The notes beneath the pieces were generated by a model. The model did not search any database, was not told the DNA's origin, and saw only the letters and a program-made list of their open reading frames with translations. From contig JAFSTE010000019.1 in the NCBI GenBank assembly GCA_017450645.1, positions 1-38,982 on the forward strand: DNA of 38,982 nucleotides, given 5' to 3'. Source of the DNA: Eubacterium sp. Lineage in GTDB: Bacteria > Bacillota > Clostridia > Oscillospirales > Acutalibacteraceae. The position numbers were made by a program, and so were the translations under genes. This document shows, one piece after another, positions 5,152-38,982 of the stretch (within the stretch, counting starts at the first letter, position 1; every line of letters starts with the position of its first letter).

Positions 5152-5853
5152 ATGGAGATTAAATCACTTGCAACCGAGCTTAACACTAATACCTACCCGG
5201 GACGCGGTATCGTTATCGGCAAAAGCGCCGACGGCAAAAACGCCGTAATCGCGTACTTTATTATGGGCAGGAGCGTTAATTCACGCAACAGAATTTTCGA
5301 AGATAACGACAGGGGCGGCATCCGCACAAAAGCTTTTGACGAGAGCAAAATGGTTGACCCGCACCTTATTATATACAATCCGGTACTTAAGCTCGACGGC
5401 AAAACTATTGTCACTAACGGCGACCAGACCGATACGATTTACGACTTTATGAAGGACGGACACTGCTACCGTCACGCGCTTTTAACTCGCGAGTTTGAGG
5501 ACGACGCACCTAATTATACGCCGAGAATTTCGGCTGTTGTTAAGCCAAACGGCGACTATAATATGTCCATTCTTAAGTCAAATATGGGCGAGCCTGAGTG
5601 CGTAAGATACTTCTTTGAATATCCTGCAAGGACAGGACTCGGACACTTTATCCACACCTATAAATGCGACGGAAATCCTATTCCGTCCTTTGAGGGCGAG
5701 CCGACTCCCGTAGCTATCGAGGGCGATATAGACGCCTTCACCGATATGGTTTGGAATAATCTTAACGAGGATAATAAGGTGTCACTTTTCACCCGCTTCA
5801 TTAATCTTGAAAACGGCGAGGAGCAGACGAGAATTATTAATAAAAATGTTTAA
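5152..5853 (+). CDS. IMP cyclohydrolase of the PurO type
   Basis: This 233-residue protein matches the IMP_cyclohyd family (PurO, first known from methanogenic archaea), which closes FAICAR to IMP, the last step of the pathway. Recognisable parts are the N-terminal YPGRGIVIG, the segment MGRSVNSRNRIF and an internal NGDQTDTIYDF. It stands 12 bases after purN and 54 before purD, where most bacteria carry bifunctional purH. There is no AICAR formyltransferase in the window, so that activity must be encoded elsewhere. Such a split PurO-like arrangement is known in several clostridia. RBS GGGAGAA precedes ATG 5152. Family assignment is fairly sure; activity is inferred. Confidence 0.85.
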   Translation: MEIKSLATELNTNTYPGRGIVIGKSADGKNAVIAYFIMGRSVNSRNRIFEDNDRGGIRTKAFDESKMVDPHLIIYNPVLKLDGKTIVTNGDQTDTIYDFMKDGHCYRHALLTREFEDDAPNYTPRISAVVKPNGDYNMSILKSNMGEPECVRYFFEYPARTGLGHFIHTYKCDGNPIPSFEGEPTPVAIEGDIDAFTDMVWNNLNEDNKVSLFTRFINLENGEEQTRIINKNV

Positions 5854-5907
5854 TAAAGCGAGAACAAACGCTATAGCTTAAATCTGTATTCTACTAAGGA
5901 GAATAAT

Positions 5908-7185
5908 ATGCGAGTACTTGTAGTTGGCGGCGGCGGAAGAGAGCACGCCCTGATAAAAAAGATAAAAGAGTCAAAAAAGGTTGATTATATTGCTTGTTGC
6001 CCCGGAAACGGCGGCATTTCGTTTGACGCTGAGTGCTTTAATGTCGGTGCTTGCGACATCGACGGCGTTGTAAATCTTGCAAAAGAAATTAAGGCTGACC
6101 TTGTAGTTGTTGCGCCCGACGACCCGCTTGTTCTGGGTATGGTCGACGCGCTTAATAAAGAGGGCTTTAAGACCTTCGGACCTACTGCCGCAGCGGCAAT
6201 TATCGAGGGCTCTAAGGTGTTTTCTAAAAACCTTATGCTTAAATACGGCATCCCGACTGCTGAGTACAAGGTGTTTGACAACGCCGACGACGCAATCGCA
6301 TATATTACCGAAAAAAATGAGTTCCCGACCGTTATTAAGGCGGACGGTCTTGCGCTCGGCAAGGGCGTTATAATCCCCGAAAGCCTTGATGCTGCAATCG
6401 CCGGCGTTAAAGAGATTATGGAGGATAAGGTGTTCGGCGACAGCGGTAACAATATTGTTGTTGAGGAATTCCTTACAGGTCCCGAGGTGTCGGTGCTTGC
6501 GTTTACGGACGGAAAATGCGTTAAGCCTATGGTATCCTCTATGGACCATAAGCGCGCTCTCGACGGCGACAAAGGGCTTAATACCGGCGGTATGGGTACT
6601 GTTTCGCCTAATCCTTACTACACCGACGAGGTAGCTAAGGAGTGTATGGATAAGATTTTTATGCCTACCATTGAGGCTATGAATAAAGAGGGAAGAACCT
6701 TTAAGGGCTGCCTCTACTTCGGACTTATGGATACGCCTAAAGGTCCTAAGGTTATCGAGTATAACTGCCGTTTCGGCGACCCCGAAACTCAGGTTGTGCT
6801 GCCGCGTCTTAAGACCGACATTATCGACATCTTTGAGGCTATTAATAACGAAACCTTATCCGAGCTTGAAATCGAGTGGAGCGACGACGCTTGCGTATGC
6901 GTAATTATGGCGTCGGGCGGTTATCCTAAGGCGTACGACAAGGGCATTGAAATTACGGGACTTAAGGACGGCGACCTTGACGGCGTTACCGTTTACCACG
7001 CAGGTACTGCTCTTAAGGATGGTAAGCTTGTTACCTCGGGCGGCCGGGTTCTCGGTGTTACGGCGCTTGCGGGCGACCTTACTTCAGCGCTTAAAAAGGC
7101 ATATGACGGCGTCGAGAAAATCAGCTTTGATAAGGCTTTTTGCAGAAAAGATATAGGTAAACGCGCGCTTGAAGCATTAAAGTAA
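5908..7185 (+). CDS. purD: Phosphoribosylamine-glycine ligase PurD
   Basis: PurD joins glycine to phosphoribosylamine with ATP, giving GAR. Its 425 residues are of normal length. The start shows the N-domain loop GGGGREHAL (residues 7-15), the middle has the ATP-grasp core (IKADGLALGKGV), and the metal-binding CRFGDPETQ stands near residue 290. It ends the purine operon. No hairpin terminator follows; the next unit begins with its own strong promoter only 24 bases downstream. Confidence 0.97.
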   Translation: MRVLVVGGGGREHALIKKIKESKKVDYIACCPGNGGISFDAECFNVGACDIDGVVNLAKEIKADLVVVAPDDPLVLGMVDALNKEGFKTFGPTAAAAIIEGSKVFSKNLMLKYGIPTAEYKVFDNADDAIAYITEKNEFPTVIKADGLALGKGVIIPESLDAAIAGVKEIMEDKVFGDSGNNIVVEEFLTGPEVSVLAFTDGKCVKPMVSSMDHKRALDGDKGLNTGGMGTVSPNPYYTDEVAKECMDKIFMPTIEAMNKEGRTFKGCLYFGLMDTPKGPKVIEYNCRFGDPETQVVLPRLKTDIIDIFEAINNETLSELEIEWSDDACVCVIMASGGYPKAYDKGIEITGLKDGDLDGVTVYHAGTALKDGKLVTSGGRVLGVTALAGDLTSALKKAYDGVEKISFDKAFCRKDIGKRALEALK

Positions 7186-7296: not shown

Positions 7297-9021
7297 ATGG
7301 CAACAATCAAAAAGAGTAACAAAAAGAAGATAATAATTCCTATCTGTATCGTACTTGTTATTGCACTTGTAGCGACTACTGTTCTTACAATCAGCGCTAA
7401 GAAAAAGACCGTAACAGTAAGCCTTACGACCATTACGGCTGGCGATATTACAGAGAATGTTAACGCTACGGGTACGGTATCCGCAGGCGCTTCGAGAGAG
7501 TATTCACCTGCTACAGTTGCGCTTTGCGAGGATGTTTATGTTAAGGTAGGCGATACTGTAAAGAAGGGCGAAAAGCTTGCCGACTTTTCTACGGAGGAGC
7601 TTGATGCTCAGATTAGCTCGCTTCAGATTTCGTATAACGATGCGAGCGCTTCTTACTATTCCGCTCTTAAAACGCAAAGGCTTAATAAGAAAAAGCTTGC
7701 AGCGGTTAATAAAAAGATTAAGCCCCTTGAAAAGCAGCTCAAGAAGCTCGAAAAGGCAAGGAGCACAACTACTACAACCACTACAACAACAACCACAACC
7801 GAAACAGAAAGCGAGTCGGGAGAGAGTTCCTCAAAGAACAGTTCGGGCAGCACTAAAAAAGCTGTTTCTGATATCACAATCCCCTCGACATCCGATTATG
7901 CCGGCGATATCGAAGACGCTGTTAAGGCTCTTAAGCAGCTTGCCGAAACGATTTCTGCCCTTAGTGACGATATCACAACCACTAACGAGATTACCCGTCA
8001 GGTTATGAAGGCCATTTCGGAAATGATTGCAAAGGGTGAGCTTTCACCTGAAGCTATTTCTAAGGCTGCGGGCGACGCTATGAGCGAAGCTATCCAAAAG
8101 GGACTTATCGACGAAACTAAGCTTATCGTTGAAAGCGGCGTGGCTGTTCAGATGGTTGAGGAGGCTGTTAAGGCTGTTAACTGGGCAGAGATAGGCACAG
8201 CAATCGGTAACACCGACAACGCACAGCTTGCAAGCATAGAGCTTCAGCTTGCCGCTCTTTACGCTCAGCGCGAGGTATTCGAGCTCGGCGCTGACGGAAC
8301 CTTAGTTAACTCCCAAAAGCAGATTATGAGAACTACTAAGAGCGCTCTTGACACTCTTAAGAAGTCACAAAGCGAGCTTAAAGCCGGTTGGGTATCCTCA
8401 ATCGACGGCGTTGTTACCGAGTGTACGCTCGAAAAAGGTCAGCAGACCTCGGCGCTCCAGACCGGACTTAAGGTAGAAAACCTTGACGATTTAGTTGTTA
8501 CCGTTTCGCTTAACGAATACGATATTCATAAGGTAAGCGTAGGTATGCGCGGCGAGATTAAAACCGCGTACGGTAAATACACCGGCGAGATTATCAGTAT
8601 CGCACCTACTGCTACGGGCTCATCGAGCGGCTCAGTGCTCGACTCGCTCGGCTCAAATATGGCGGGCATCAGCGGTCTTTCGTCGCTTACATCAAGCGGT
8701 GCCGGCGTACAGTGCCAGGTTGCGGTTGACGGCGTTGACGATAATATTATCGCGGGCTTCGACGCAAATGTTGAAATTCAGACCGGCTCTTACACCGATG
8801 TTCCGACCGTTCCGATTGAGTCCATAGTACTCGAAAAAGAGGGTACATATGTTTACCTTTATAACGAGGCGGAAGGAACCGTAACTAAGACTAAGATTGA
8901 AACAGGCGCGATTTCCGATACCGCTTATGAGATTAAGAGCGGACTTAAAATCGGCGACAAGATTGTTTCTACTCCGGGTCAGGATTATACAGAGGACACC
9001 TTTAAGGTTAAAGTTAAATAA
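7297..9021 (+). CDS. MacA-like membrane fusion protein (efflux adaptor)
   Basis: The 574-residue protein has one N-terminal membrane anchor (about residues 11-33), then a lipoyl-like half (60-100), a charged coiled-coil arm starting near 104, a run of twelve threonines (157-168) followed by a Ser/Glu-rich linker, a long helical insert (about 195-320), the second half of the lipoyl motif (GWVSSIDGVVTECTLEKGQ) and beta-barrel parts to the end. This is the HlyD/MacA layout, which in Gram-positive cells bridges an ABC permease to the wall side. It is followed after 12 bases by the permease. Substrate unknown; antimicrobial peptides or lipids are typical for the family. Confidence 0.85.
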   Translation: MATIKKSNKKKIIIPICIVLVIALVATTVLTISAKKKTVTVSLTTITAGDITENVNATGTVSAGASREYSPATVALCEDVYVKVGDTVKKGEKLADFSTEELDAQISSLQISYNDASASYYSALKTQRLNKKKLAAVNKKIKPLEKQLKKLEKARSTTTTTTTTTTTTETESESGESSSKNSSGSTKKAVSDITIPSTSDYAGDIEDAVKALKQLAETISALSDDITTTNEITRQVMKAISEMIAKGELSPEAISKAAGDAMSEAIQKGLIDETKLIVESGVAVQMVEEAVKAVNWAEIGTAIGNTDNAQLASIELQLAALYAQREVFELGADGTLVNSQKQIMRTTKSALDTLKKSQSELKAGWVSSIDGVVTECTLEKGQQTSALQTGLKVENLDDLVVTVSLNEYDIHKVSVGMRGEIKTAYGKYTGEIISIAPTATGSSSGSVLDSLGSNMAGISGLSSLTSSGAGVQCQVAVDGVDDNIIAGFDANVEIQTGSYTDVPTVPIESIVLEKEGTYVYLYNEAEGTVTKTKIETGAISDTAYEIKSGLKIGDKIVSTPGQDYTEDTFKVKVK

Positions 9022-29062: not shown

Positions 29063-32000
29063 ATGAACACAAAATCTAAAGTTTGGGAAGAAACAGTAGT
29101 TATTCCTACCTATGAGGCAGCAGAGCCTGACAGAAATCCGCTGTTTCTTGAAAAGCGTGTGTATCAGGGCAGCAGCGGCAAGGTTTATCCGCACCCTGTT
29201 ATTGACAAAATCAGCGATGAAAGAATTGACAAAGAATACAAAGCGGTATTCCTTGAAAATGATTATCTCAAGATAATGATTCTGCCCGAGCTCGGTGGAA
29301 GAGTGCAGAGAGCGTACGACAAAACAAGAAACTATGACTTTGTATATTACAATCAGGTTATCAAGCCTGCCCTTGTAGGACTTGCGGGTCCGTGGATTAG
29401 CGGCGGCATTGAATTTAACTGGCCTCAACACCATCGTCCGAGCACCTTTGACAAGGTGAACTATACTTTTTTTGAAAATGAGGATGGCAGCGCAACGGTT
29501 GTTGTGAGTGAATACGAGAATATGTTTCATACCAAGGGCGAAACGGAGTTTACGCTCTATCCCGACAAGGCGTATTTAGAGCTGAAAAATCATCTCTTTA
29601 ACCGCACGCCTGTAAAGCAGACATTTCTTTGGTGGGCGAATCCTGCCGTGGCGGTTAACAGCAATTACCGCAGTATCTTTCCGCCTGATGTGACTGCAGT
29701 TATGGACCACGGCAAGCGAGATGTTTCCACTTTCCCGATTGCAACGGGAACCTACTACAAGGTGGATTATTCAAGGGGCGTTGATATTTCACGTTACGAC
29801 AATCTGCCTGTACCTACCTCTTATATGGCGGCTAAAAGCGATTTCGATTTTGTCGGCGGTTATGATGACGGCGTGAAAGCAGGCCTGCTCCATATTGCCG
29901 ACCATCATATTTCGCCGGGTAAAAAGCAGTGGACCTGGGGCAGCGGTGATTTCGGCAAGGCATGGGATAGAAATCTGACCGATGAGGACGGTCCGTATTT
30001 TGAACTGATGACAGGCTGCTTTACCGATAATCAGCCGGATTTCAGTTATATTGCGCCGTTTGAAGCGAGAGATTTTACGCAGTATTTTATGCCGTATCAC
30101 GACCTCGGACAAGTGCATAATGCGAACAAGGATTTGTCGCTTCATCTTGATGTAAGCGATATGATAACCGTTACGCTTTACTGCTCTGGTACGCTCGGCA
30201 AATGCGATGTTAATATCAATAAGTTTTATAAAAAATGCTTTGACTTTCAGTGCGCAGAAACCTATGAACTGAAAATCCCGAACGGCAACGGTTTGAAGTT
30301 TGAGGATATAAAAATAACCGTCACAAAGGACGGAAAAGAAATCCTTATCTTTGACGGCAATTTCAAAAAGCAGGAGATTCCCGAGGCGGCAAAGGCGGCG
30401 CCGCTGCCGCAGGACTGCAAAACAAACGAGGATTTATACCTTTACGGTCAGCACATTGAGCAGTACCGCCACGCAACCCGCAGAGCCGAGGATTATTACC
30501 TTGAAGGTCTGCAACGCGATAACACCGATATGCGCCTTAATAATGCCTACGGTATGCTGCTGTTCAAGAAAGGCTGTATTGCCGAAAGCGAAACCTATTT
30601 TCGCAAGGCGATTGAAAAGCAAACGCGCTCAAATCCAAATCCGAACAGCGGTGAATACTATTACAATCTCGGCTTATCGCTCTTTTATCAGAATAAGCTC
30701 GGCGAGGCGTTTGACGCGTTTTATAAAGCGATATGGAACAGCGACACGCAGGCAAACGCCTATTACTTTATGGCGCTTATTAAGTCAAGGCAGAAGGATA
30801 AGAGGCAGGCGCTTGAATTTGTCAACAAGGCACTGGTTTATAATGCGCACAATTTCAGCGCGCTCAATCTGAAAGCATTGCTGAAAGGCGAAAAGAGCAA
30901 GGCAAGTGAAATTGATAGCTTAAACATTCTTGCGCTTTTCATTAACGGCGAGGATATTAAAAAACACATTATCAATCCGAATATGCTGATTGATTTATCG
31001 CTTGAATTGTGGCTTGGCGGTTTCAATGAAAAGGCGTTTGAGCTGCTTAATCTCTGCAATGAGCCGTTTCCGCTTCTTGATTATTACCGCGCATTTTACA
31101 GCGGTGACAAAGCGTATCTTGAAAATGCGTTTTCTGATACCCCTTACTGTTGCTTCCCCAACAGGATAGAGGATATCGCAGTGCTTAAAAATGCGGTGCA
31201 GAATAATCCCGCTGATTTTAAAGCGCCATATTATCTCGGCTGCCTGTACTTTGACAAGGAACGCCATGAAAACGCGATAAAGTGCTTTGAGATGTCCATA
31301 GCTCGAGGCGCAGATTTTGCAACGCCGTATCGCAATCTTGCACTGCTTGAATACAATGTTCAGCAGAGTACAGACGAAGCCTTAACGCTTATGAAAAGAG
31401 CATATGCGCTTGACGAAAGCGATGCGAGAATACTATATGAATTAGATTTGCTCAAAAAGCGAATGGGCGTTTCTCCGAAAGAGCGCTTAGCATTTCTTGA
31501 AAGCCGATTTGATATCGTTAATCTTCGTGACGATTTAACGCTTGAATATATCACGCTGCTTAATCTTTCAGGCGAATATAAAAAGGCGCTTGATAGAATT
31601 ATGGGCAGGAAATTCCACCCGTGGGAGGGCGGCGAAGGCAAAGTGCCCGAGCAGTATATCTTTTCAAATATCGCTCTCGGCACGCCCGAAAACGCCTTCG
31701 CTTATCCCGAAAATCTCGGCGAGGGCAAGCTCTACGGCGCACAGGAAAACCGCCAGAATTATTATATGGGGCTGAAAACCGCAGACATCACCTATTTTGA
31801 AAAGGCGTCAACGGGTTTGAGCGAGCCAGCCTCGGCGATGTACTACAACGACCAGCCGCCTGAAACGATATTCTATCAGGGTATGGCGCTTCTGAAGCTC
31901 GGCAGAGAAAACGAGGCAAACATGCGGTTTGACAAACTGATTAATTATGCCGACAGGCATATTGATGATAAAATCCGCATTGATTATTTTGCCGTTTCGT

Positions 32001-32194
32001 TGCCCGATTTGCTTGTGTTTGACGAGAATTTGGTTATTAAAAATCAGCTTCACTGCCTGTTTATGAAAGCGCTCGGGCTGTACGGCAAGGGCGAAAAAGA
32101 ACAGAGCAAAAAGCTATTTGAAAAGGCACTTGGAATAAATCCAAACACCTTCCAGATAGCAACACACTACAATCTGCTTTTCAAGGAGAACTGA
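29063..32194 (+). CDS. DUF5107 domain protein with tetratricopeptide repeats
   Basis: 1043 residues from ATG 29063, chosen because AAGGTGA stands seven bases upstream; an ATG at 29042 lacks any ribosome site. Residues of about 1-330 form a DUF5107 domain with beta-sandwich-like composition rich in aromatic residues (WWANPAVAV, PYFELMTGCF). TPR helices follow (about 420-1040), for example YYYNLGLSLFYQNKLGEAFD. DUF5107 proteins co-occur with glycoside hydrolases and are believed to bind or modify carbohydrate, though an enzymatic activity is not established. No signal peptide. It lies two bases before the GH2 gene and shares its promoter. Confidence 0.85.
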   Translation: MNTKSKVWEETVVIPTYEAAEPDRNPLFLEKRVYQGSSGKVYPHPVIDKISDERIDKEYKAVFLENDYLKIMILPELGGRVQRAYDKTRNYDFVYYNQVIKPALVGLAGPWISGGIEFNWPQHHRPSTFDKVNYTFFENEDGSATVVVSEYENMFHTKGETEFTLYPDKAYLELKNHLFNRTPVKQTFLWWANPAVAVNSNYRSIFPPDVTAVMDHGKRDVSTFPIATGTYYKVDYSRGVDISRYDNLPVPTSYMAAKSDFDFVGGYDDGVKAGLLHIADHHISPGKKQWTWGSGDFGKAWDRNLTDEDGPYFELMTGCFTDNQPDFSYIAPFEARDFTQYFMPYHDLGQVHNANKDLSLHLDVSDMITVTLYCSGTLGKCDVNINKFYKKCFDFQCAETYELKIPNGNGLKFEDIKITVTKDGKEILIFDGNFKKQEIPEAAKAAPLPQDCKTNEDLYLYGQHIEQYRHATRRAEDYYLEGLQRDNTDMRLNNAYGMLLFKKGCIAESETYFRKAIEKQTRSNPNPNSGEYYYNLGLSLFYQNKLGEAFDAFYKAIWNSDTQANAYYFMALIKSRQKDKRQALEFVNKALVYNAHNFSALNLKALLKGEKSKASEIDSLNILALFINGEDIKKHIINPNMLIDLSLELWLGGFNEKAFELLNLCNEPFPLLDYYRAFYSGDKAYLENAFSDTPYCCFPNRIEDIAVLKNAVQNNPADFKAPYYLGCLYFDKERHENAIKCFEMSIARGADFATPYRNLALLEYNVQQSTDEALTLMKRAYALDESDARILYELDLLKKRMGVSPKERLAFLESRFDIVNLRDDLTLEYITLLNLSGEYKKALDRIMGRKFHPWEGGEGKVPEQYIFSNIALGTPENAFAYPENLGEGKLYGAQENRQNYYMGLKTADITYFEKASTGLSEPASAMYYNDQPPETIFYQGMALLKLGRENEANMRFDKLINYADRHIDDKIRIDYFAVSLPDLLVFDENLVIKNQLHCLFMKALGLYGKGEKEQSKKLFEKALGINPNTFQIATHYNLLFKEN

Positions 32195-32196
32195 CT

Positions 32197-33768
32197 ATGA
32201 GATACAACCAAACGCTGAACCGTTGGGATTTCACACTCGGCGATTATAAAACAAAAGTTACCCTTCCGCACACATGGAATGTGGATGACGAGGTAATGAA
32301 TTACAGAGGCAAGGCAGTTTATGAAACTGCTGTGTTTATCAACGAAGAATACAAAGGCAAAAAAGCATATCTTAAATTCAATGCAGTTTATCATTCGGCA
32401 AAGGTTTATGTGAATGATATCTTTGTCGGAGAGCATTCTCGATCGGGCTTTACGCCATTCAGGATTGATATAACAAACACAGCAAAAATCGGTGAGAATA
32501 ACAGCATTAAAGTTGAGGTTAATAATATCCATACGGATAATATGCTCCCTCACGGCGATGACTTTGACTGGGCGGATGACGGCGGCATTATTCGCGGGGT
32601 TACGCTTGAAATCCGCGAGCCGGACGGTATTGAATATATGCACATCACCGAACAAATTGACAGTATACAAAACGGCTTTGCAAGCGGCATGCTGAATATT
32701 AAAACAAATACCGAAAAGCCCTGCACCGTCAAGATTTATGATTATTCAAACGGTAAGCTTGTTCTTCAAAGTGACAGCCTGAATATACCGTTTGAAAATC
32801 TAAAGCTCTGGTCGTGCTATTCTCCGAATTTATATACTGTCACGCTTGAAACCGATAACGACGTTTATGAAACGAGAATCGGAATTCGCAAGTTTGAAAC
32901 CAAGGGCGAAAAGGTGTATCTCAACGGTGAAGAAATCTATCTTAAGGGCTGCGAATGGATGCCTGGCTCCCATCCCGATTTCGGTATGGCGGAACCGCTT
33001 GACCATAGCATAAAATGCTTAAAACAACTCAAAACAGCAGGCTGTGTGTTCACCCGCTTTCACTGGCAGCAGGATGATGCGCTTTTTGACTGGTGCGATG
33101 AAAACGGCTTGCTTGTGCAGGAGGAAATCCCCTATTGGGGCTATCCCAAAGAGGCAACGCCGCTGCAGCTTGATATTGCAAAGCAGCAGGCAGACGAAAT
33201 GATGCATTTTCATTTTAATCATCCGTCCATCGTGTGCTGGGGAGTCGGCAACGAGCTCGGTGCGGAAAAAGAAGCAACGATTAACTATGTTAAGAACATG
33301 GTTACCCACTTTAAATCATACGACAAGCGCCGCCTTGTGAATTATGTTTCAAACACGCTTTCCCGTGTGGAAAACGCAGACAAGGACGATGCAACGCTTT
33401 ACGGCGATATTGCAATGTGGAACGATTATCTCGGACTGTGGGAGCCGAGTGACGACATTCCGAATCATATGATAAGAACCTGTAAAAAAGCAGAGGGTAT
33501 GCCGCTTCTCGTTTCCGAATTCGGACTTTGCGAGCCGCATTTCAAGGGCGGCGATGAGGAACGCGCACGCATTTTGGAAGAGCGCCTTGCAATGTATGCC
33601 GAAATCCCAAACATCTGCGGCTATATGTGGTTTTCGCTAAATGACTACCGCACGCACTGCGGTGAAGAAGGCGAGGATAAACTCCGCCGCCGCGTTCACG
33701 GCTCAACGGATTTATACGGCAACGAAAAGCCGTCATACCGCCTTTTATGTGAATTGCAAAAGAAATAA
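32197..33768 (+). CDS. Glycoside hydrolase family 2 protein (beta-galactosidase/beta-glucuronidase-like)
   Basis: 523 residues: N-terminal jelly-roll sugar-binding domain (about 1-145, LPHTWNVDD), an Ig-like domain (about 150-235) and a TIM barrel with the family sites. The acid/base is E353 in GVGNELG and the nucleophile is E441 in VSEFGL. It is shorter than most beta-galactosidases and close to the beta-glucuronidase/mannosidase-like branch; the exact sugar cannot be told. No signal peptide, so it acts on imported oligosaccharides. Adjacent to the DUF5107-TPR gene and controlled with it, probably by the AraC regulator. Confidence 0.9.
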   Translation: MRYNQTLNRWDFTLGDYKTKVTLPHTWNVDDEVMNYRGKAVYETAVFINEEYKGKKAYLKFNAVYHSAKVYVNDIFVGEHSRSGFTPFRIDITNTAKIGENNSIKVEVNNIHTDNMLPHGDDFDWADDGGIIRGVTLEIREPDGIEYMHITEQIDSIQNGFASGMLNIKTNTEKPCTVKIYDYSNGKLVLQSDSLNIPFENLKLWSCYSPNLYTVTLETDNDVYETRIGIRKFETKGEKVYLNGEEIYLKGCEWMPGSHPDFGMAEPLDHSIKCLKQLKTAGCVFTRFHWQQDDALFDWCDENGLLVQEEIPYWGYPKEATPLQLDIAKQQADEMMHFHFNHPSIVCWGVGNELGAEKEATINYVKNMVTHFKSYDKRRLVNYVSNTLSRVENADKDDATLYGDIAMWNDYLGLWEPSDDIPNHMIRTCKKAEGMPLLVSEFGLCEPHFKGGDEERARILEERLAMYAEIPNICGYMWFSLNDYRTHCGEEGEDKLRRRVHGSTDLYGNEKPSYRLLCELQKK

Positions 33769-33782
33769 ATTTGCTGTATAAT
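33754..33782 (+). promoter_or_regulatory. Promoter module copy A
   Basis: TTGCAA (33754-33759), 17-bp spacer, TATAAT (33777-33782), overlapping the end of the GH2 gene. Nine bases after the -10 box comes the dyad at 33792-33803. Confidence 0.7.
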
Positions 33783-33791
33783 GGAAATAAC

Positions 33792-33803
33792 AAATCGGGA
33801 TTT
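33792..33803. promoter_or_regulatory. Dyad operator copy A
   Basis: AAATC-GG-GATTT, a perfect 5-bp dyad, 9 bases after the -10 box and therefore at the expected transcription start. The identical 12-mer stands before the tannase-like gene. Confidence 0.6.
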
Positions 33804-33855
33804 AATGAAGCGATAACAACAATATGAATACGCTCGGGCTAAGGAGGATGATGAT

Positions 33856-34398
33856 ATGTCAAAGAAAATACTAATCATTTCAAGTAGCATTCGTAACAAA
33901 AGCAATTCTGAGATTCTTGCAAGAGAAGCGGAAAAAGGAGCAATTGCAGCAGGTAACGAGGTTGAGTTTATTTCGTTAAAGAATAAGGACCTTCGTTTTT
34001 GTAAGGGTTGTCTTGCCTGTCAGAAAACGATGAAATGTGTTATTAAAGACGATGTTGCTGAGATTATGGAAAAGGTTAAAAATGCAGACACACTGTTATT
34101 TGCAACACCGATTTATTATTATGAGCTCTGCGGACAACTCAAGACATTACTTGACAGATTAAATCCGCTTTACCCCCAGGAGTACAGTTTCAGAGATGTA
34201 TATCTTATGACTGCTTCTTATGAAACCGGAGACGAGGTTGTTGAAAAAGCTGTCGGAGGAATCAATGGTTGGATTGATTGCTTTGAAAAAGCAAGATATG
34301 CAGGTATATTCAACGGAGGCGGACTCAATGATATGGGTGAAGCATCAAACAAACCTGATGTTCTGAATGCAGCATTTGAATTCGGTAAAGCATTATGA
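33856..34398 (+). CDS. Iron-sulfur flavoprotein / NADPH-dependent FMN reductase family
   Basis: 180 residues of flavodoxin-like fold with FMN loop SSSIRNKSNS (residues 9-18) and the compact cysteine motif C49-x2-C52-x2-C55-x5-C61, which in archaeal and clostridial iron-sulfur flavoproteins binds a [4Fe-4S] cluster. The flavin loop TPIYYYELCG follows. Such proteins reduce quinones, nitro- or metal compounds or O2/H2O2. It starts behind a strong RBS (AAGGAGG) in a transcript from promoter copy A and overlaps the following lipoprotein gene (ATGA). Confidence 0.88.
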   Translation: MSKKILIISSSIRNKSNSEILAREAEKGAIAAGNEVEFISLKNKDLRFCKGCLACQKTMKCVIKDDVAEIMEKVKNADTLLFATPIYYYELCGQLKTLLDRLNPLYPQEYSFRDVYLMTASYETGDEVVEKAVGGINGWIDCFEKARYAGIFNGGGLNDMGEASNKPDVLNAAFEFGKAL

Positions 34399-34901
34399 AA
34401 AAAGTCATAATTGTTATTTCACTGGTGCTTATGATAATCACATTAAGCGCTTGCAGCAGTATCCCGGATGGGAATGAAACAACAAGCACTGCCACAAACG
34501 AAGCATCACAAACAGCATCAGAATCAACAACGAAAAAACCGCAGGCAACAGAAATGAAAGTGAATATCAGTATTAACGGAAAAACCTTCTCTGCAACTCT
34601 CGAAGATAACGAAGCAGCGAAGGAATTATATGAAATCATAAAAAATGACGGCTTGACGATTGGAATGAGCGATTACTCCGGTTTTGAAAAGGTTGGTGCT
34701 CTTGGTCATACGCTGACATCAAACGATAAACAAACCACTACCGAAGCAGGAGACATCGTGCTTTATCAGTCAAATCAGATTGTAATGTTTTACGGTTCCA
34801 ATTCGTGGAGTTATACAAAACTCGGCAAGATAGATGATTTAAGCGGCTGGGAGGAGGCTCTCGGCAGCGGCGATATTACGGCGGAATTTTCTGTCGGTTA
34901 A
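34395..34901 (+). CDS. Cyclophilin-like fold lipoprotein
   Basis: 168 residues: lipoprotein signal with lipobox LSAC (Cys20), a Thr/Ser/Gln-rich linker (about 21-50), then a cyclophilin-like domain (Cyclophil_like family) with conserved segments such as KVGALGHTL, AGDIVLYQSNQIVMFYG and KLGKIDDL. Proteins of this family often lie next to flavin reductases and hydrolases; the function is not known and they lack the prolyl isomerase active site. The start codon overlaps the stop of the preceding flavoprotein gene, implying co-translation. Confidence 0.85.
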   Translation: MKKVIIVISLVLMIITLSACSSIPDGNETTSTATNEASQTASESTTKKPQATEMKVNISINGKTFSATLEDNEAAKELYEIIKNDGLTIGMSDYSGFEKVGALGHTLTSNDKQTTTEAGDIVLYQSNQIVMFYGSNSWSYTKLGKIDDLSGWEEALGSGDITAEFSVG

Positions 34902-34914
34902 CGGAGGAATAATT

Positions 34915-35913
34915 ATGATTAAAACAGCAGAATTGAGATTAACACAGGAATGGGATAAAACCTTTCCGAAGAGCGAAAAGGTTGACCACAGCAAGGTAAC
35001 ATTTGTAAACCGCTACGGCATTACGCTTGCGGCGGATATGTATGTTCCGAAACATGCAGGGGATAAACTCCCTGCAATCGCAGTATGCGGACCTTTCGGC
35101 GCAGTCAAGGAGCAGTGCAGCGGTCTTTATGCACAGACATTGGCGGAACGAGGATTCTTAACGATTGCCTTTGACCCGTCGTTTACCGGCGAAAGCGGAG
35201 GCGAGCCGAGATATATGGCGTCCCCCGATATCAATACCGAGGACTTTATGGCTGCCGTTGATTTCCTTTCGCTTAACGAAAAGGTTGACGCCGACAGAAT
35301 CGGAATTATAGGTATCTGCGGCTGGGGCGGTATGGCTATAAATGCTGCAGCGCTGGATACAAGAATCAAGGCAACGGTTGCCTCCACGATGTACGATATG
35401 ACGCGCGTTAATGCCAAGGGCTATTTTGACAGCGATGACAGCGAAGAAAAGCGTTACGCTGCAAAAGAAGCTATATGTGCGCAGAGGCTTGAGGATTTGA
35501 AAAACGGAGAATACAAGCTCGGCGGCGGTGTAATTGACCCGCTTCCCGAGGATGCGCCGTTCTTTGTTAAAGACTATTATGATTACTACAAAACCGAAAG
35601 AGGATATCATCCTCGTTCCCTCAATTCAAACGGCGGCTGGAATGTTATCGGCTGTGAATCCTTTATCAATCAGCCGATACTGAAGTACAGTAACGAAATC
35701 CGTTCGGCGGTTATGGTTATGCACGGCGACAAGGCTCATTCTTTCTATTTCGGCAGGGACGCCTACAACGATATGATTAACGGAAATAAATATACGGATA
35801 ATAAAGAATTGCTCGTTATTGAAGGCGCGGTTCATACCGACCTTTACGACGGCGGAGACAGCAACGCTATTCCGTTTGATAAGCTTGAGAGTTTTTTCAA
35901 TAAATATTTGTAA
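34915..35913 (+). CDS. Alpha/beta hydrolase (dienelactone hydrolase/YcjY-like)
   Basis: 332 residues with an alpha/beta-hydrolase core. The nucleophile elbow reads G133-I-C-G-W-G-G139, so where serine is usual there is Trp137, leaving Cys135 as the only nearby nucleophile. Candidate Asp272 (MHGDKAHSF) and His307 (GAVHTDL) complete a triad. A cap region lies at about 165-240. No signal peptide. It is third in the operon with an iron-sulfur flavoprotein and a lipoprotein and shares RBS style GGAGGAA. Possible esters, lactones or acyl compounds as substrates; not more can be said. Confidence 0.82.
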   Translation: MIKTAELRLTQEWDKTFPKSEKVDHSKVTFVNRYGITLAADMYVPKHAGDKLPAIAVCGPFGAVKEQCSGLYAQTLAERGFLTIAFDPSFTGESGGEPRYMASPDINTEDFMAAVDFLSLNEKVDADRIGIIGICGWGGMAINAAALDTRIKATVASTMYDMTRVNAKGYFDSDDSEEKRYAAKEAICAQRLEDLKNGEYKLGGGVIDPLPEDAPFFVKDYYDYYKTERGYHPRSLNSNGGWNVIGCESFINQPILKYSNEIRSAVMVMHGDKAHSFYFGRDAYNDMINGNKYTDNKELLVIEGAVHTDLYDGGDSNAIPFDKLESFFNKYL

Positions 35914-35922
35914 TAACTAATT

Positions 35923-35957
35923 AGTACAGTCGATATCATCGGCTGTACTTTTGTTTT
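35923..35957 (+). terminator. Terminator of the hydrolase operon
   Basis: 12-bp stem AGTACAGTCGAT / ATCGGCTGTACT (one G-T pair), loop ATC, then TTTTGTTTT. Its 3' arm holds TGTACT, which stands 17 bp before the next -10 box. Confidence 0.92.
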
Positions 35958-35972
35958 GCATTATGCTATAAT
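35944..35972 (+). promoter_or_regulatory. Promoter module copy B
   Basis: Extended -10 TATGCTATAAT (TATAAT at 35967-35972); the only -35-like hexamer at 17 bp is TGTACT inside the terminator stem. A 23-base string ending TATAATGAAC is identical to that of copy C. Confidence 0.7.
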
Positions 35973-35981
35973 GAACACGAG

Positions 35982-35993
35982 AAATCGGGATTT
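35982..35993. promoter_or_regulatory. Dyad operator copy B
   Basis: AAATC-GG-GATTT, identical to copy A and again 9 bases after the -10 box. Confidence 0.6.
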
Positions 35994-36004
35994 GTAGATT
36001 AAGG

Positions 36005-36028
36005 CGAGAAAAAATACTTCTCGTTTTT
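36005..36028 (+). terminator. Possible attenuator hairpin in the leader of the tannase-like gene
   Basis: CGAGAA / TTCTCG with a seven-base loop followed by TTTTTAATTTT. It stands between promoter copy B and the coding start, 61 bases before the ATG, so it could stop transcription early. The stem is only 6 bp. Confidence 0.5.
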
Positions 36029-36088
36029 AATTTTGGTTTAATTTTGCCGGATAGAATGAAGATAACAACATTGGAAAGGATGTTATTT

Positions 36089-38254
36089 ATGAAACTATCA
36101 AAGGCAGTTATTGCAATCGTATTAGTTGCAGCACTAATTGCAACGATGTGCGCTTGCAGTAAAAAATCAAATTCAAACAACACAACCGCCTCAACAAGCA
36201 CAAGTGCAACAGAGATTGAAGCAGCACTCAATCTTGCAAACAATGAAAATCAGGAATGGACTTATGACAGCAACGCTGACGCATGGGTACTCAGCATTGT
36301 AACAGCGGTAACGAATCCTGAAATTGAGGACCAACAGGGCGTTTCGGTCTGTGTTCCCGGTGCCTATATTAAAGGTATTGATACCGATGGTGACGGTAGC
36401 GCAGATGTAACAGCGGACAACGCAAGCGACGCAGTCAAAGGCTCACTTGTGATTGACTACGAGGCAAAGATAACAAGCACCAACGGTCAGGTTTACACAG
36501 CAGCAACCTGCCCCGTTATTCTTAACACAGGTGCGGCAGGCTACGGCTCACAGAGCAATCAAACAGCAGGAACAACCTATGCTAAAGAAGGATATATCAA
36601 TGTAACCTGCGGTAACAGAGGAAAGCAGGACACAGCAACCGATACTGACGGCAACACCTATTATACGGGTGACGCGCCGCTCTGTCTTGTTGACCAAAAG
36701 AATGCGGCAAGATTTGTTAAATACAATATTCTTCTCGGCAATCTTCCGGGCAACGTTGATTACTTTGTTTCAACAGGCGGCTCGGGCGGCGGCGCTCACG
36801 CAGCGATGTTTGCAGCAACCTCCAACAATTCGGATTACTACGATTACGAAATTGAAGCAGGCGCAGTAGGCGTTTACAAAAATGCGGATGGCACTTATTC
36901 CACAACCGTAACGATTGACGGCAAGGAATATGAGATTTCAGACGGTGCGTGGGGCTGTGTTGCTTACAGTGCTATCACTTCGCTTTATGAAGCGGATATG
37001 GCGCTTGCGTTTGAATACTATCTTGATACCGATTACGATTTCGGTTCTGATTTCAAAGCAAAACTTGCAGAACTTCTTGCAGATGAATACAAGAACTATA
37101 TCAACGACCAAAACTTAACCGTTGACGAAAGCAAGGTAAACCTTGACATTAACTCCGACGGTGATACAGAAGATACCATTAAGCTCACCATTGAGTATGA
37201 TGAAAGCAAATATCCCGAAACCAACGGTTACGGCGGAACATATCTCGATTTCTATCTTGCTGAGTTTATCTCAAATCTTCAGTGGTATATTGATAATCTT
37301 GATTACTCTGAAAACTGGACTTGGTTTGACAGCGACGGCAACGCTCTTTCCGACAGTGAGGTTGCCGCTATGACAACAGCTGACAAAGCGCAGGCATTCC
37401 TTGAAGGCAGATATACTAAAGGAAGTTCGACTTCTAACGATATGCAGGGCGGTCCGGGCGGAAACAGCGGTCCTCCGAGCGGAGATATGAACGGTACGCA
37501 TCCAAGCGGAAATCCCCCGAGTGGCAACGATGGAAATTCAATGGAAGTCGGTACTCCCGACGCAGGCTCAACACAGTCATCAACGGGCAGCACGGACAGT
37601 GCAAACTACAGTAGCTTTGACGAAATGCTTGAAGCATATCAGAGTGATATTGCGTCAATTCAGGAGGGCGATAAATACGGCAACAATATTGTTAATCTCT
37701 ATAATCCGCTTAAATACATTGGCGATAACGATACGGATAATCCGACTTGGACAAGAATTGTAATGGGTGCTTCCGAGGGCGATATGAGTATGTTCTCCTC
37801 GCTCAATATGCAGATTGCCTGGCTGAACGCAGGCGTTGACAGTACGATTGAATGGCAGTGGGACGGCGGTCATGTTCCGAGCGAGGTTCTCGGCGAAAGC
37901 CTTGCCCTCTATGTTGATACCATGTACGGCAAGTATGTTGACGGCGCAGTAGAGATTACAAAATCCGAAGCAACAAAGCAGACAACAAACGGCGACTCCA
38001 CCGAGCAGAGCGGAACAGATATTACCTCCTGGGTAAATTACAAGGACGGCGAGGTTTCGTTCTCACTCGCAGACGCAGCTTCTTACAGAACTGCAGGCGC
38101 TGCAAAAGCAGTCCCCGGATTTGATGTTATAGACTACGGTCAGGAGGACTATGTGTTCGGCAGCAGCACCGCAGATGCAAGGCACTGGGACGAACATCTG
38201 CTCAAAGTGCTTGAAGAGAACAAGGATACACTCAGCGAACTGTTTAATAAATAG
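36089..38254 (+). CDS. Tannase-like (subtype B) lipoprotein esterase
   Basis: 721 residues from ATG 36089 behind GGAAAGGA; an in-frame ATG at 36044 lacks a ribosome site and would mask the lipoprotein signal (lipobox near Cys21/Cys23). The catalytic domain resembles Lactiplantibacillus tannase: SVCVPGAYI, KNAARFVKYN, nucleophile S232 in GGSGGGAH, ADMALAFEY, NPLKYIG, D565 in GASEGDMS and H595 in GGHVPS. The Asp-His distance (30) is close to that in TanLp1 as I remember it (32). A Gly/Pro/Ser-rich linker (about 450-490) is inserted before the Asp, and a segment KAVPGFD...VFG...RHW that I recall lying before the Asp in tannases stands at the C-terminus here. Expected work: hydrolysis of galloyl or related phenolic esters outside the cell. 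Confidence 0.75.
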   Translation: MKLSKAVIAIVLVAALIATMCACSKKSNSNNTTASTSTSATEIEAALNLANNENQEWTYDSNADAWVLSIVTAVTNPEIEDQQGVSVCVPGAYIKGIDTDGDGSADVTADNASDAVKGSLVIDYEAKITSTNGQVYTAATCPVILNTGAAGYGSQSNQTAGTTYAKEGYINVTCGNRGKQDTATDTDGNTYYTGDAPLCLVDQKNAARFVKYNILLGNLPGNVDYFVSTGGSGGGAHAAMFAATSNNSDYYDYEIEAGAVGVYKNADGTYSTTVTIDGKEYEISDGAWGCVAYSAITSLYEADMALAFEYYLDTDYDFGSDFKAKLAELLADEYKNYINDQNLTVDESKVNLDINSDGDTEDTIKLTIEYDESKYPETNGYGGTYLDFYLAEFISNLQWYIDNLDYSENWTWFDSDGNALSDSEVAAMTTADKAQAFLEGRYTKGSSTSNDMQGGPGGNSGPPSGDMNGTHPSGNPPSGNDGNSMEVGTPDAGSTQSSTGSTDSANYSSFDEMLEAYQSDIASIQEGDKYGNNIVNLYNPLKYIGDNDTDNPTWTRIVMGASEGDMSMFSSLNMQIAWLNAGVDSTIEWQWDGGHVPSEVLGESLALYVDTMYGKYVDGAVEITKSEATKQTTNGDSTEQSGTDITSWVNYKDGEVSFSLADAASYRTAGAAKAVPGFDVIDYGQEDYVFGSSTADARHWDEHLLKVLEENKDTLSELFNK

Positions 38255-38266
38255 CTCTGATATGAT

Positions 38267-38304
38267 AAAAGTACAGCTGATAACCTCGGCTGTACTTTTC
38301 TTTT
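38267..38304 (+). terminator. Terminator of the tannase-like gene
   Basis: AAAAGTACAGC / GCTGTACTTTT stem followed by CTTTT; close in sequence to the terminator at 35923. Confidence 0.9.
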
Positions 38305-38319
38305 GCATTATGCTATAAT
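38291..38319 (+). promoter_or_regulatory. Promoter module copy C
   Basis: Extended -10 TATGCTATAAT (TATAAT at 38314-38319) with TGTACT of the terminator arm 17 bp upstream, as in copy B. Confidence 0.7.
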
Positions 38320-38328
38320 GAACCCAAC

Positions 38329-38340
38329 AAATCATGAGTT
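38329..38340. promoter_or_regulatory. Dyad operator copy C (diverged)
   Basis: AAATCATGAGTT, 9 bases after the -10 box. With one flanking base pair it reads ACAA-A-TCATGA-G-TTGT, a near-perfect dyad, diverged in its centre from copies A and B. Confidence 0.5.
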
Positions 38341-38371
38341 GTAAAACAAAGGGCACGGATTCAGGCGAGGC

Positions 38372-38424
38372 GCCATAACGAAGGTTTTGAAAGTAAGTAG
38401 AAACAATCGTTATGGCATTTTGCA
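38372..38424 (+). terminator. Leader hairpin upstream of the short ORF
   Basis: Perfect 10-bp stem GCCATAACGA / TCGTTATGGC with a 25-base loop, then ATTTTGCATTTT. It could be an attenuator or the end of a small RNA started at promoter copy C. Confidence 0.55.
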
Positions 38425-38468
38425 TTTTACAACAATAATTAAAAACATTAATATTGGAGGAAAATGCA

Positions 38469-38531
38469 ATGAAAAAGTATATTGCTGATGAAAAAAACGG
38501 CACTTATGTTATACTAAACGGAAAGGAGTGA
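38469..38531 (+). CDS. Short ORF, 20 codons, with strong ribosome site
   Basis: ATG 38469 follows ATTGGAGGAAAATGCA, a near-ideal RBS. The peptide MKKYIADEKNGTYVILNGKE is unknown to me; its start faintly recalls the beginning of TnpV-type proteins (DEKNG), so it could be the stub of a larger, lost gene. The coding end lies in the 5' arm of the following hairpin. Expression is plausible, function unknown. Confidence 0.45.
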   Translation: MKKYIADEKNGTYVILNGKE

Positions 38532-38555
38532 TAAATTCATTCCTTTCCGTTTAGT
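38513..38555. terminator. Bidirectional terminator before the isomerase-like gene
   Basis: Perfect 15-bp stem ACTAAACGGAAAGGA / TCCTTTCCGTTTAGT with a 13-base loop. It serves the short ORF from the left and the minus-strand gene from the right. Confidence 0.9.
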
Positions 38556-38982
38556 TTAATCAAAAGGATTTTCGGTTTTGTAAGGAAGGGCTTTCGGTTG
38601 GTTGTAGGAAATGTCCTTTATGCCAAAGAATTTAAACACTTCAAAAAGTGCCTTGCCGTAATGACCGAAGGCGACCGCGCCGTGGTGGGGATAATGCTTT
38701 TCAATCAGCACGTGGCGGTAAAATCTGCCCATTTCGGGGATTGCAAAAACACCAATACTGCCGAACGAGCCTGTCGGCACATCAAGGATTTCGCCTTGAG
38801 CAATATACGCACGGATATTGCCCTCGCTGTCGCACTGAAGACGGTAGAAAGTAATATCGCCCGCCGCAATATCGCCCTCAAGCGTGCCTCTTGTGAAATC
38901 CGGATCGCTTCCCTCGGGTTCAAGAAGCCTGTGCTGTATGAGCTGATACTTTACCGCTCTGTCGGCACACATTTTACAGCTC
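38556..38982 (-). CDS. L-fucose/L-arabinose isomerase family protein, C-terminal part (5' end outside the window)
   Basis: The frame is open to the right edge, so only about 141 C-terminal residues are seen; an internal ATG at 38972 is not the true start (SCK precedes it in frame). It matches the C-terminal domain of the fucose isomerase-like family: GDITFYRLQ, YIAQGEILDVPTG, and HHGAVAFGHYGKALFEVFKFFGI, where FucI has a similar NHGV..IGHVGAD stretch. This would isomerise an aldose to a ketose. With the GH2 unit and NahK-like kinase it hints at host- or plant-glycan use. Substrate not certain. Confidence 0.75.
   Translation of the reverse strand, partial: SCKMCADRAVKYQLIQHRLLEPEGSDPDFTRGTLEGDIAAGDITFYRLQCDSEGNIRAYIAQGEILDVPTGSFGSIGVFAIPEMGRFYRHVLIEKHYPHHGAVAFGHYGKALFEVFKFFGIKDISYNQPKALPYKTENPFD

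Follow-up and report, generated by a model that had tools for sequence, protein, structure and literature searches.

A likely integron-like gene-cassette slot with a promoter at its entry side in gut Clostridia

To our knowledge, the capture of gene cassettes is known chiefly from integrons and from the dif modules of Acinetobacter. The attC site of integrons is defined by the core GTTRRRY, and Tn916-type integrases are associated with a variable centre between arms. Integrons are reported in Firmicutes among other phyla (PMC8618304), Acinetobacter dif (pdif) modules are described as accessory genes enclosed by two short recombination sites (PMC6449649), and Tn916 is reported to recognise an A:T-rich region (PMC4202715). 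The present analysis concerns a stretch of 38,982 nt, referred to throughout as the window, from Eubacterium sp. (assembly GCA_017450645.1, contig JAFSTE010000019.1), in which a promoter is followed three times at a fixed distance by a short dyad. A first-pass annotation of the letters alone took this module as the repressor-controlled promoter of a local, perhaps phenolic-responsive regulon. The comparisons below point instead to promoter plus dyad as the probable entry side of a slot for gene cassettes.

The proposed arrangement would begin with a promoter having an extended -10, followed by a 16-bp recombination site, ACAAAT-N4-ATTTGT, the centre of which is mostly CGGG. Next would come the cassette, consisting of a Shine-Dalgarno sequence and a gene. 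Another site, ACAA[A/C]T-TCTG-ATTTGT, would follow close to the stop codon or at it, and by eye a hairpin often stands behind this second site. Recombination within the sites would swap whole genes between slots and stack them in tandem, so that an incoming gene would be transcribed from the promoter of the slot. We consider it likely that such an integron-like slot (promoter, site, gene, site) exists in gut Clostridia, and the enzymes at work there are probably Tn916-type integrases encoded by mobilizable elements. A Tn916-type tyrosine recombinase from integrative and mobilizable elements (IMEs) may excise the cassettes as circles, and the system may be active at the present day. The case is made by comparing sequences, in which flanks switch at the site, two-site units stand in different contexts, one junction of promoter, site and flank is unoccupied, and integrases lie near some of the sites.

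The three copies are where the first-pass annotation placed them: the exact pattern TATAAT-N9-AAATC is present at 33777, 35967 and 38314 (copies A, B and C) and nowhere else in the window. With up to two mismatches allowed, the count rises to 31, against 22.9 expected, and the exact copies alone are out of the ordinary. The dyad reads AAATCGGGATTT at copies A and B and AAATCATGAGTT at copy C, and these 12 bp form the core of the 16-bp site. The dyad alone is within chance for the window (AAATCNNGATTT with at most one mismatch gives 5 matches against 2.9 expected, and 15 of 100 shuffles reach 5), and it is the combination of promoter and dyad that is significant. Similar terminators had been noted upstream of copies B and C, and terminator-like hairpins do precede both promoters; the likeness of these two copies goes beyond the 23 bases first claimed, being a 101-nt repeat with 78% identity that spans hairpin, promoter and dyad. 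Copy A is without a hairpin of the B/C type; its TATAAT begins 8 nt past the stop codon of a GH2 gene, and its -35 (33754-33759) lies inside the end of that gene. A structured RNA at the modules was considered and rejected, since the single Rfam match in 32000-38982 (L20 leader, 22.1 vs 58.7 bits) is below threshold and on the other strand. The promoters, sites and hairpins of the window are as follows.

33754..33782, + strand: promoter A, -35 TTGCAA, 17-bp spacer, -10 TATAAT (33777-33782); from the sequence
33790..33805, + strand: site A, ACAAATCGGGATTTAA, with the dyad at 33792-33803; from the sequence, the own-genome scan, and the break-point site model and consensus
35923..35952, + strand: terminator-like hairpin upstream of promoter B; from the sequence and repeats
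35944..35972, + strand: promoter B, -35-like TGTACT, 17-bp spacer, extended -10 TGCTATAAT (TATAAT 35967-35972); from the sequence, with homology to genome G019 starting at 35943
35980..35995, + strand: site B, AGAAATCGGGATTTGT; from the sequence and the own-genome scan, with homology to genome G048 ending at 35994
38254..38271, + strand: possible decayed right-hand site past the tannase-like gene, GCTCTGATATGATAAAAG against CTTCTGATTTGTAAAG elsewhere; a weak candidate from by-eye comparison
38267..38299, + strand: terminator-like hairpin upstream of promoter C; from the sequence and repeats
38291..38319, + strand: promoter C, -35-like TGTACT, 17-bp spacer, extended -10 TGCTATAAT (TATAAT 38314-38319); from the sequence and repeats
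38327..38342, + strand: site C, ACAAATCATGAGTTGT, centre CATG instead of CGGG; from the sequence, with homology of cassette 2 to G019 ending at 38330, inside site C

In what follows, G-numbers denote compared genomes, L-numbers their loci, and C17 a contig of the own genome (2.08 Mb, 32 contigs). The module recurs elsewhere. In the own genome, TATAAT-N9-AAATCNNGANTT with at most one mismatch is found at four exact places, three in the window and one on C17, and at one place with one mismatch (reversed-pattern control, 0). In 80 genomes of the genus, TATAAT-N9-AAATCNNGATTT occurs at 36 places in 18 genomes (control 0), and in 398 family genomes, the own one included, a related pattern occurs at 10 places in 9 genomes, two of them in the own genome (control 0). 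Named genomes contributed 64 stretches, 62 of which are titled Bacillota, mostly Clostridia and many from rumen or gut; matches in Pseudanabaena and Flavobacteriales may be due to chance, and the named-genome loci partly repeat genus and family loci (e.g. L192 is L053, and L198 is L075). One 115-bp block of hairpin, promoter and site gave no match in plasmids and phages, nor did two patterns in viral contigs. From site to site the same promoter elements return: an extended -10 (TGnTATAAT) and, 17 bp before it, a -35-like hexamer. A Shine-Dalgarno sequence and a start codon stand behind 74 of 110 promoter-side sites, a set in which some entries are matches by chance or the palindrome read on the reverse strand, and 59 of these 74 starts lie 23-34 nt after the start of the site. 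Upstream of the promoter-side site in L057, L063, L069 and L085, a second type of promoter block is seen, which carries GGATTTGTCTTTACAAATCCTATGCTCGCT and, with its inverted GGATTTGTC/GACAAATC-like ends, resembles a small inverted-repeat element.

The genes behind the dyad lend no support to the single regulon that had been supposed. They are unrelated across species and include ACT, GNAT, hexapeptide transferase, DUF4256, HXXEE, ATC hydrolase, DUF362 and, below cut-off, AAA-like proteins; two of ten downstream proteins scanned have no Pfam match. Loci L034 and L037 are identical over the 70 nt upstream of TATAAT, and their DNA is unlike soon after GATTTG.

A sister site without promoter, ACAANTTCTGATTTGT, was found at 19 places in 14 of the 80 genus genomes (reversed control, 1). 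The upstream reading frame ends at or inside this right-hand site in 7 of the 19, including ACT (L120), kinase-like (L124, L127 and L135) and GNAT (L126) proteins, and within 30 nt of it in 5 more; for the remaining sites the nearest listed frame is further away or absent. L130 and L138 have one gene end in common and differ in the DNA after it; L121 and L130 have the following DNA in common and differ in the gene. A second site lies within 2.5 kb downstream in 13 of 27 promoter-side sites of the genus, against 0, 1 and 1 for the reversed and two permuted controls. The corresponding count for L159-L222 (16/44; controls 0, 3, 0, 2) is not used as evidence, because these loci partly repeat others and hence are not independent. 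The consensus of 104 promoter-side and 35 right-hand non-redundant sites is ACAAAT-N4-ATTTGT, in which conservation within the patterns and the right-hand centre TCTG are so by construction, the sites having been collected by pattern.

Break points were located by aligning 145 distinct sites (110 promoter-side and 35 right-hand) and finding where pairs that share one flank diverge. With the left flank shared, 52 promoter-side pairs diverge at +14 to +16 (32 pairs) or +17 to +40 (20 pairs), and 13 right-hand pairs at +16 (6 pairs) or +19 to +34 (7 pairs). With the right flank shared, the three promoter-side pairs break at -38, -18 and -15, and in the 17 right-hand pairs likeness sets in at 0 or -1 (9 pairs) or at -3 to -18 (8 pairs). 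Five of the left-shared pairs come from outside the genus or from between its neighbours (L044/L162/L194; L173/L220; L199/L208). The pairs are not independent. As they were chosen for one alike and one unlike flank, far-off breaks are under-counted; and because the sites were chosen by sequence, the lack of breaks inside the site (before +14/+16, after 0) is by construction. What is informative is that similarity frequently stops at the border of the site, be it the left or the right one.

Whole units appear to move between two sites. Among the 32 intervals listed from a promoter-side site to the next site, the ACT-domain unit of the own C17 and that of G004, another species, are 86.6% identical from -36 to +2 of the right-site end with both flanks different, and an acetyltransferase-kinase unit is shared by G012 and G020 at 96.9% from -44 to -2 of the right-site end. 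Conversely, one slot holds different genes: in the own C17 it carries the ACT gene and in G048 a small glycine-rich protein, the flanks in common being a 3' fragment of spoVAC plus promoter on the left and CGAGTATCAGG on the right. In G019 the junction is unoccupied, and the promoter leads to one site (ACAACTTCTAATTCAT) and directly to the CGAGTATCAGG right flank. Maps of L053, L058 and L170 show arrays of genes, each followed by a recombination site, behind an upstream promoter, and the two-site units have att-like sites on both sides of DNA without recombination genes. The C17 locus itself (L014) holds a complete spoVAC-like gene (5847-6308), then two tandem copies of its 3' part (7494-7664 and 8188-8358), each past an inverted gene; a full spoVAC copy and 3' fragments are present also in the loci of G019 (L061), G048 (L075) and G071 (L080). 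It may be that spoVAC is a separate insertion hotspot.

The contents of the window can be compared with relatives in the same manner.

33806..35919, + strand: cassette 1 (extent inferred) with flavoprotein, lipoprotein and hydrolase; from open reading frames (ORFs) and Pfam
33856-34398, + strand: flavoprotein (FMN_red) of cassette 1; from Pfam
34395-34901, + strand: lipoprotein with a cyclophilin-like domain, cassette 1; from Pfam
34915-35913, + strand: alpha/beta hydrolase of cassette 1; from Pfam
35996..38254, + strand: cassette 2, tannase-like lipoprotein, longest ORF 36044-38254, likelier start 36089
38418..38982, no strand assigned: DNA that in G009 (L150) comes after a right-hand site and hairpin; from 97.3% identity over 565 bp, up to the window end, and the context of L122

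Promoter A and the gene order around it are the same in G012 (L055), with 90.7% identity over 32001-34799, where the L055 contig ends. The 3' end of cassette 1 with promoter B (35538-35994) is 89.1% identical to G048 (L076), from the first base of that contig to site B, beyond which G048 has a DUF4256 gene. The tannase-like unit (35943-38330), which starts at the -35 of promoter B and runs 4 nt into site C, is 85.0% identical to G019, another species, where it stands at the spoVAC locus with a different left flank. A mobile unit appears to have sites B and C as its borders, because the homologies to G019 and G048 start or stop at promoter B, site B and site C. No intact right-hand site was seen in the window, one decayed candidate being listed above, and the array looks partly degenerate or decayed. 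The tannase-like protein has no Pfam match, and its NCBIfam scores are below cut-off for both tannase_A (137 bits, cut-off 550) and tannase_B (108 bits, cut-off 300). The short ORF after copy C (38469-38531) codes for 20 aa, which we take to resemble the start of TnpV. Between site C and the G009-shared DNA, the stretch 38343-38417 contains an inverted repeat (38372-38387 and 38401-38416) and is flanked by TTTTGCATT sequences at 38301 and 38418.

When ORFs of 80 aa or longer from 118 site-bearing loci, some of these loci being repeats, were searched by motif, seven tyrosine recombinases were found, all at 65-188 bp from a site; 5.8% of the 1.11 Mb of locus sequence lies within 200 bp of a site. 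Three serine-recombinase motif matches look false by eye, with one ORF found under two loci and one LysR-like start. The seven tyrosine recombinases are of two kinds, int58 and int419. Relatives of the L058 integrase (int58) lie upstream of promoter-side sites in L058, L078, L170 and L171, and sequence of this type, with shorter pieces and C-terminal remnants counted, is upstream of 10 of the 145 sites. L058 is regarded as an IME because a MobP3 relaxase and an excisionase-family protein accompany the integrase beside the sites. Between the excisionase and integrase genes of this element sits an inverted small gene (L058 2952-3422), presumably for a GtrA-like membrane protein. As the sole enzyme int58 was rejected, since 26 of its 29 genus relatives have no site in the roughly 260 nt covered past the gene (under 40 nt for two of them), and it is kept as a frequent neighbour. 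The three others have a promoter-side site (L091 and L107) or a right-hand site in reverse (L110), and several of the relatives end beside tRNA-gene-like sequences (by eye). The L091 and L092 integrases are 96% identical, and most of the DNA behind them is shared as far as an inverted TGTCACGCTT/AAGCGTGACa pair, past which it diverges; this suggests that this pair is the true end of the L091/L092 IME.

An int419-like enzyme is the likeliest candidate for the cassette recombinase. Elements of the int419 type in L139, L140 and L221 end in the site, as seen at the integrase-side end only. Both close matches to int419 in the 80 genus genomes have a right-hand site 117 nt past the stop codon, and in L221, where the integrase is int419-like (65% identical over 204 aa), the element ends as GATAGATAAAT, CCCG, ATTTGTCGAG inside the promoter dyad. 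Six of ten family relatives of int419 end in GATAG..AAAT, followed by four variable bases and ATT, an ending with the shape of the site. As a universal enzyme int419 was set aside, as there are but two close matches in the genus and none of the ten family relatives has the exact site there.

Several observations weigh against a cassette slot of this kind. The exact promoter-side site is absent from 62 of the 80 genus genomes, the named carriers are mostly draft metagenome bins, and outside the genus the cassette structure is established for few of the matches. In 14 of the 27 promoter-side sites of the genus no second site is found within 2.5 kb, and an arm-swapped control gives a second site in 5 of 27. 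No recombinase is common to all sites; the 118 loci yielded just seven, and the surroundings of the window none, and neither the L058 integrase (E 1e-40) nor the L139 integrase (1e-30) has a match in the own genome. A site is present in 3 of 29 relatives of the L058 integrase (about 260 nt past the gene; two with less than 40 nt left), and in L091/L092 the promoter seems to lie downstream of the element's end.

Three other explanations have to be set against the cassette slot. In the one closest to the first-pass annotation, the dyad at the transcription start is the operator of a repressor that controls a small regulon. The promoter part of that annotation stands, as an extended -10 with a -35-like hexamer recurs, and the dyad does begin 7-9 nt past the -10, near the expected start, in a module that recurs across Clostridia with stereotyped promoter, spacing and distance to the gene start. 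The part concerning a repressor operator and a phenolic regulon is not supported, because the downstream genes are unrelated, promoterless sister dyads lie at or near the 3' ends of genes so that the dyad is not restricted to co-functional promoters, DNA partners switch at the dyad, and integrases adjoin some of its copies; such a regulon is therefore highly improbable. The dyad may nevertheless have an additional regulatory role, including a regulator that also binds the site.

It is also quite improbable that hairpin-promoter blocks of 60-100 bp act as mobile promoters, shuffling their neighbour genes through RecA without a dedicated recombinase. Such blocks are indeed 94-97% identical over about 74-102 bp in L053, and, as is usual for repeats, many sites are found close to the ends of contigs; however, flanks switch in both directions at right-hand sites even though about 16 bp are shared there and the DNA on either side is unlike, and right borders fall at the site although the left-hand blocks differ in kind. 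Otherwise, IMEs with Tn916-like integrases might simply prefer the dyad as a place to land, the genes in between being leftovers of insertion and deletion (accretion) and not self-moving cassettes. That the L139, L140 and L221 elements end at sites, and that L058-type integrase genes or C-terminal remnants stand upstream of 10/145 sites, would fit this scheme. It is considered unlikely in view of the complete two-site units, ACT and tannase-like, between different flanks, and of the search for L058-type remnants, in which neither ACT copy has an integrase remnant upstream.

In the open-licence literature, no account of a system like the cassette slot was found among the matches listed (titles and starts of abstracts), and a search with the exact 12-mer dyad gave no related work by title and abstract start. 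In its widest form, which we offer tentatively and with slightly less than even confidence, the proposal is of an undescribed gene-capture platform in gut and rumen Clostridia that evolved independently of integrons, where Tn916-type IME integrases, acting in cis or in trans, would bring in, line up and exchange single genes that have no promoter of their own and are expressed at once, and where hairpin-promoter blocks would be cassettes without a gene. If true, commensal and mostly uncultured gut Clostridia would have another route by which to trade small enzymes and regulators, and short near-identical promoter blocks before unrelated genes and near the ends of draft contigs could be explained. 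Since the site is short and defined, the recombinase could be found by a simple plasmid assay.

Overall, the proposed gene-cassette system is set apart from integrons, dif modules and IME accretion, also with cis-mobilizable elements (CIMEs), and it is not an integron by the tests made. With integrons it shares a tandem order of genes, each closed by a recombination site, behind an upstream promoter, and tyrosine recombinases beside some arrays. The integron integrase model TIGR02249 gave no match above the curated cut-off in 21 genomes (21 of the 25 site-bearing genus genomes, as incomplete assemblies), and sub-cut-off matches occur in 20 of these 21 and in 14 of 14 control genomes. The attC core GTTRRRY is absent, by eye, from the consensus of 104 and 35 sites; the site here is instead a dyad of 16-20 bp, and hairpin-promoter blocks recur between genes (L053). 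Like dif modules (PMC6449649), the units are accessory genes between two short recombination sites, but the site sequence is another one, the setting is Clostridia chromosomes and IMEs, and a promoter is built into the flank of one site. With IME/CIME accretion the system has in common DNA free of recombination genes between att-like sites, at loci which elsewhere hold IMEs with relaxase, excisionase and integrase; the units here, however, are often of one or two genes and about 0.4-1.2 kb, with the Shine-Dalgarno sequence set against the site and the promoter supplied by the slot. The site resembles Tn916-family targets in being A+T-rich and two-armed with a variable centre (N4 in six int419 relatives), whereas its ACAAAT/ATTTGT arms recur at many loci, where they bound many genes that are free of an integrase.

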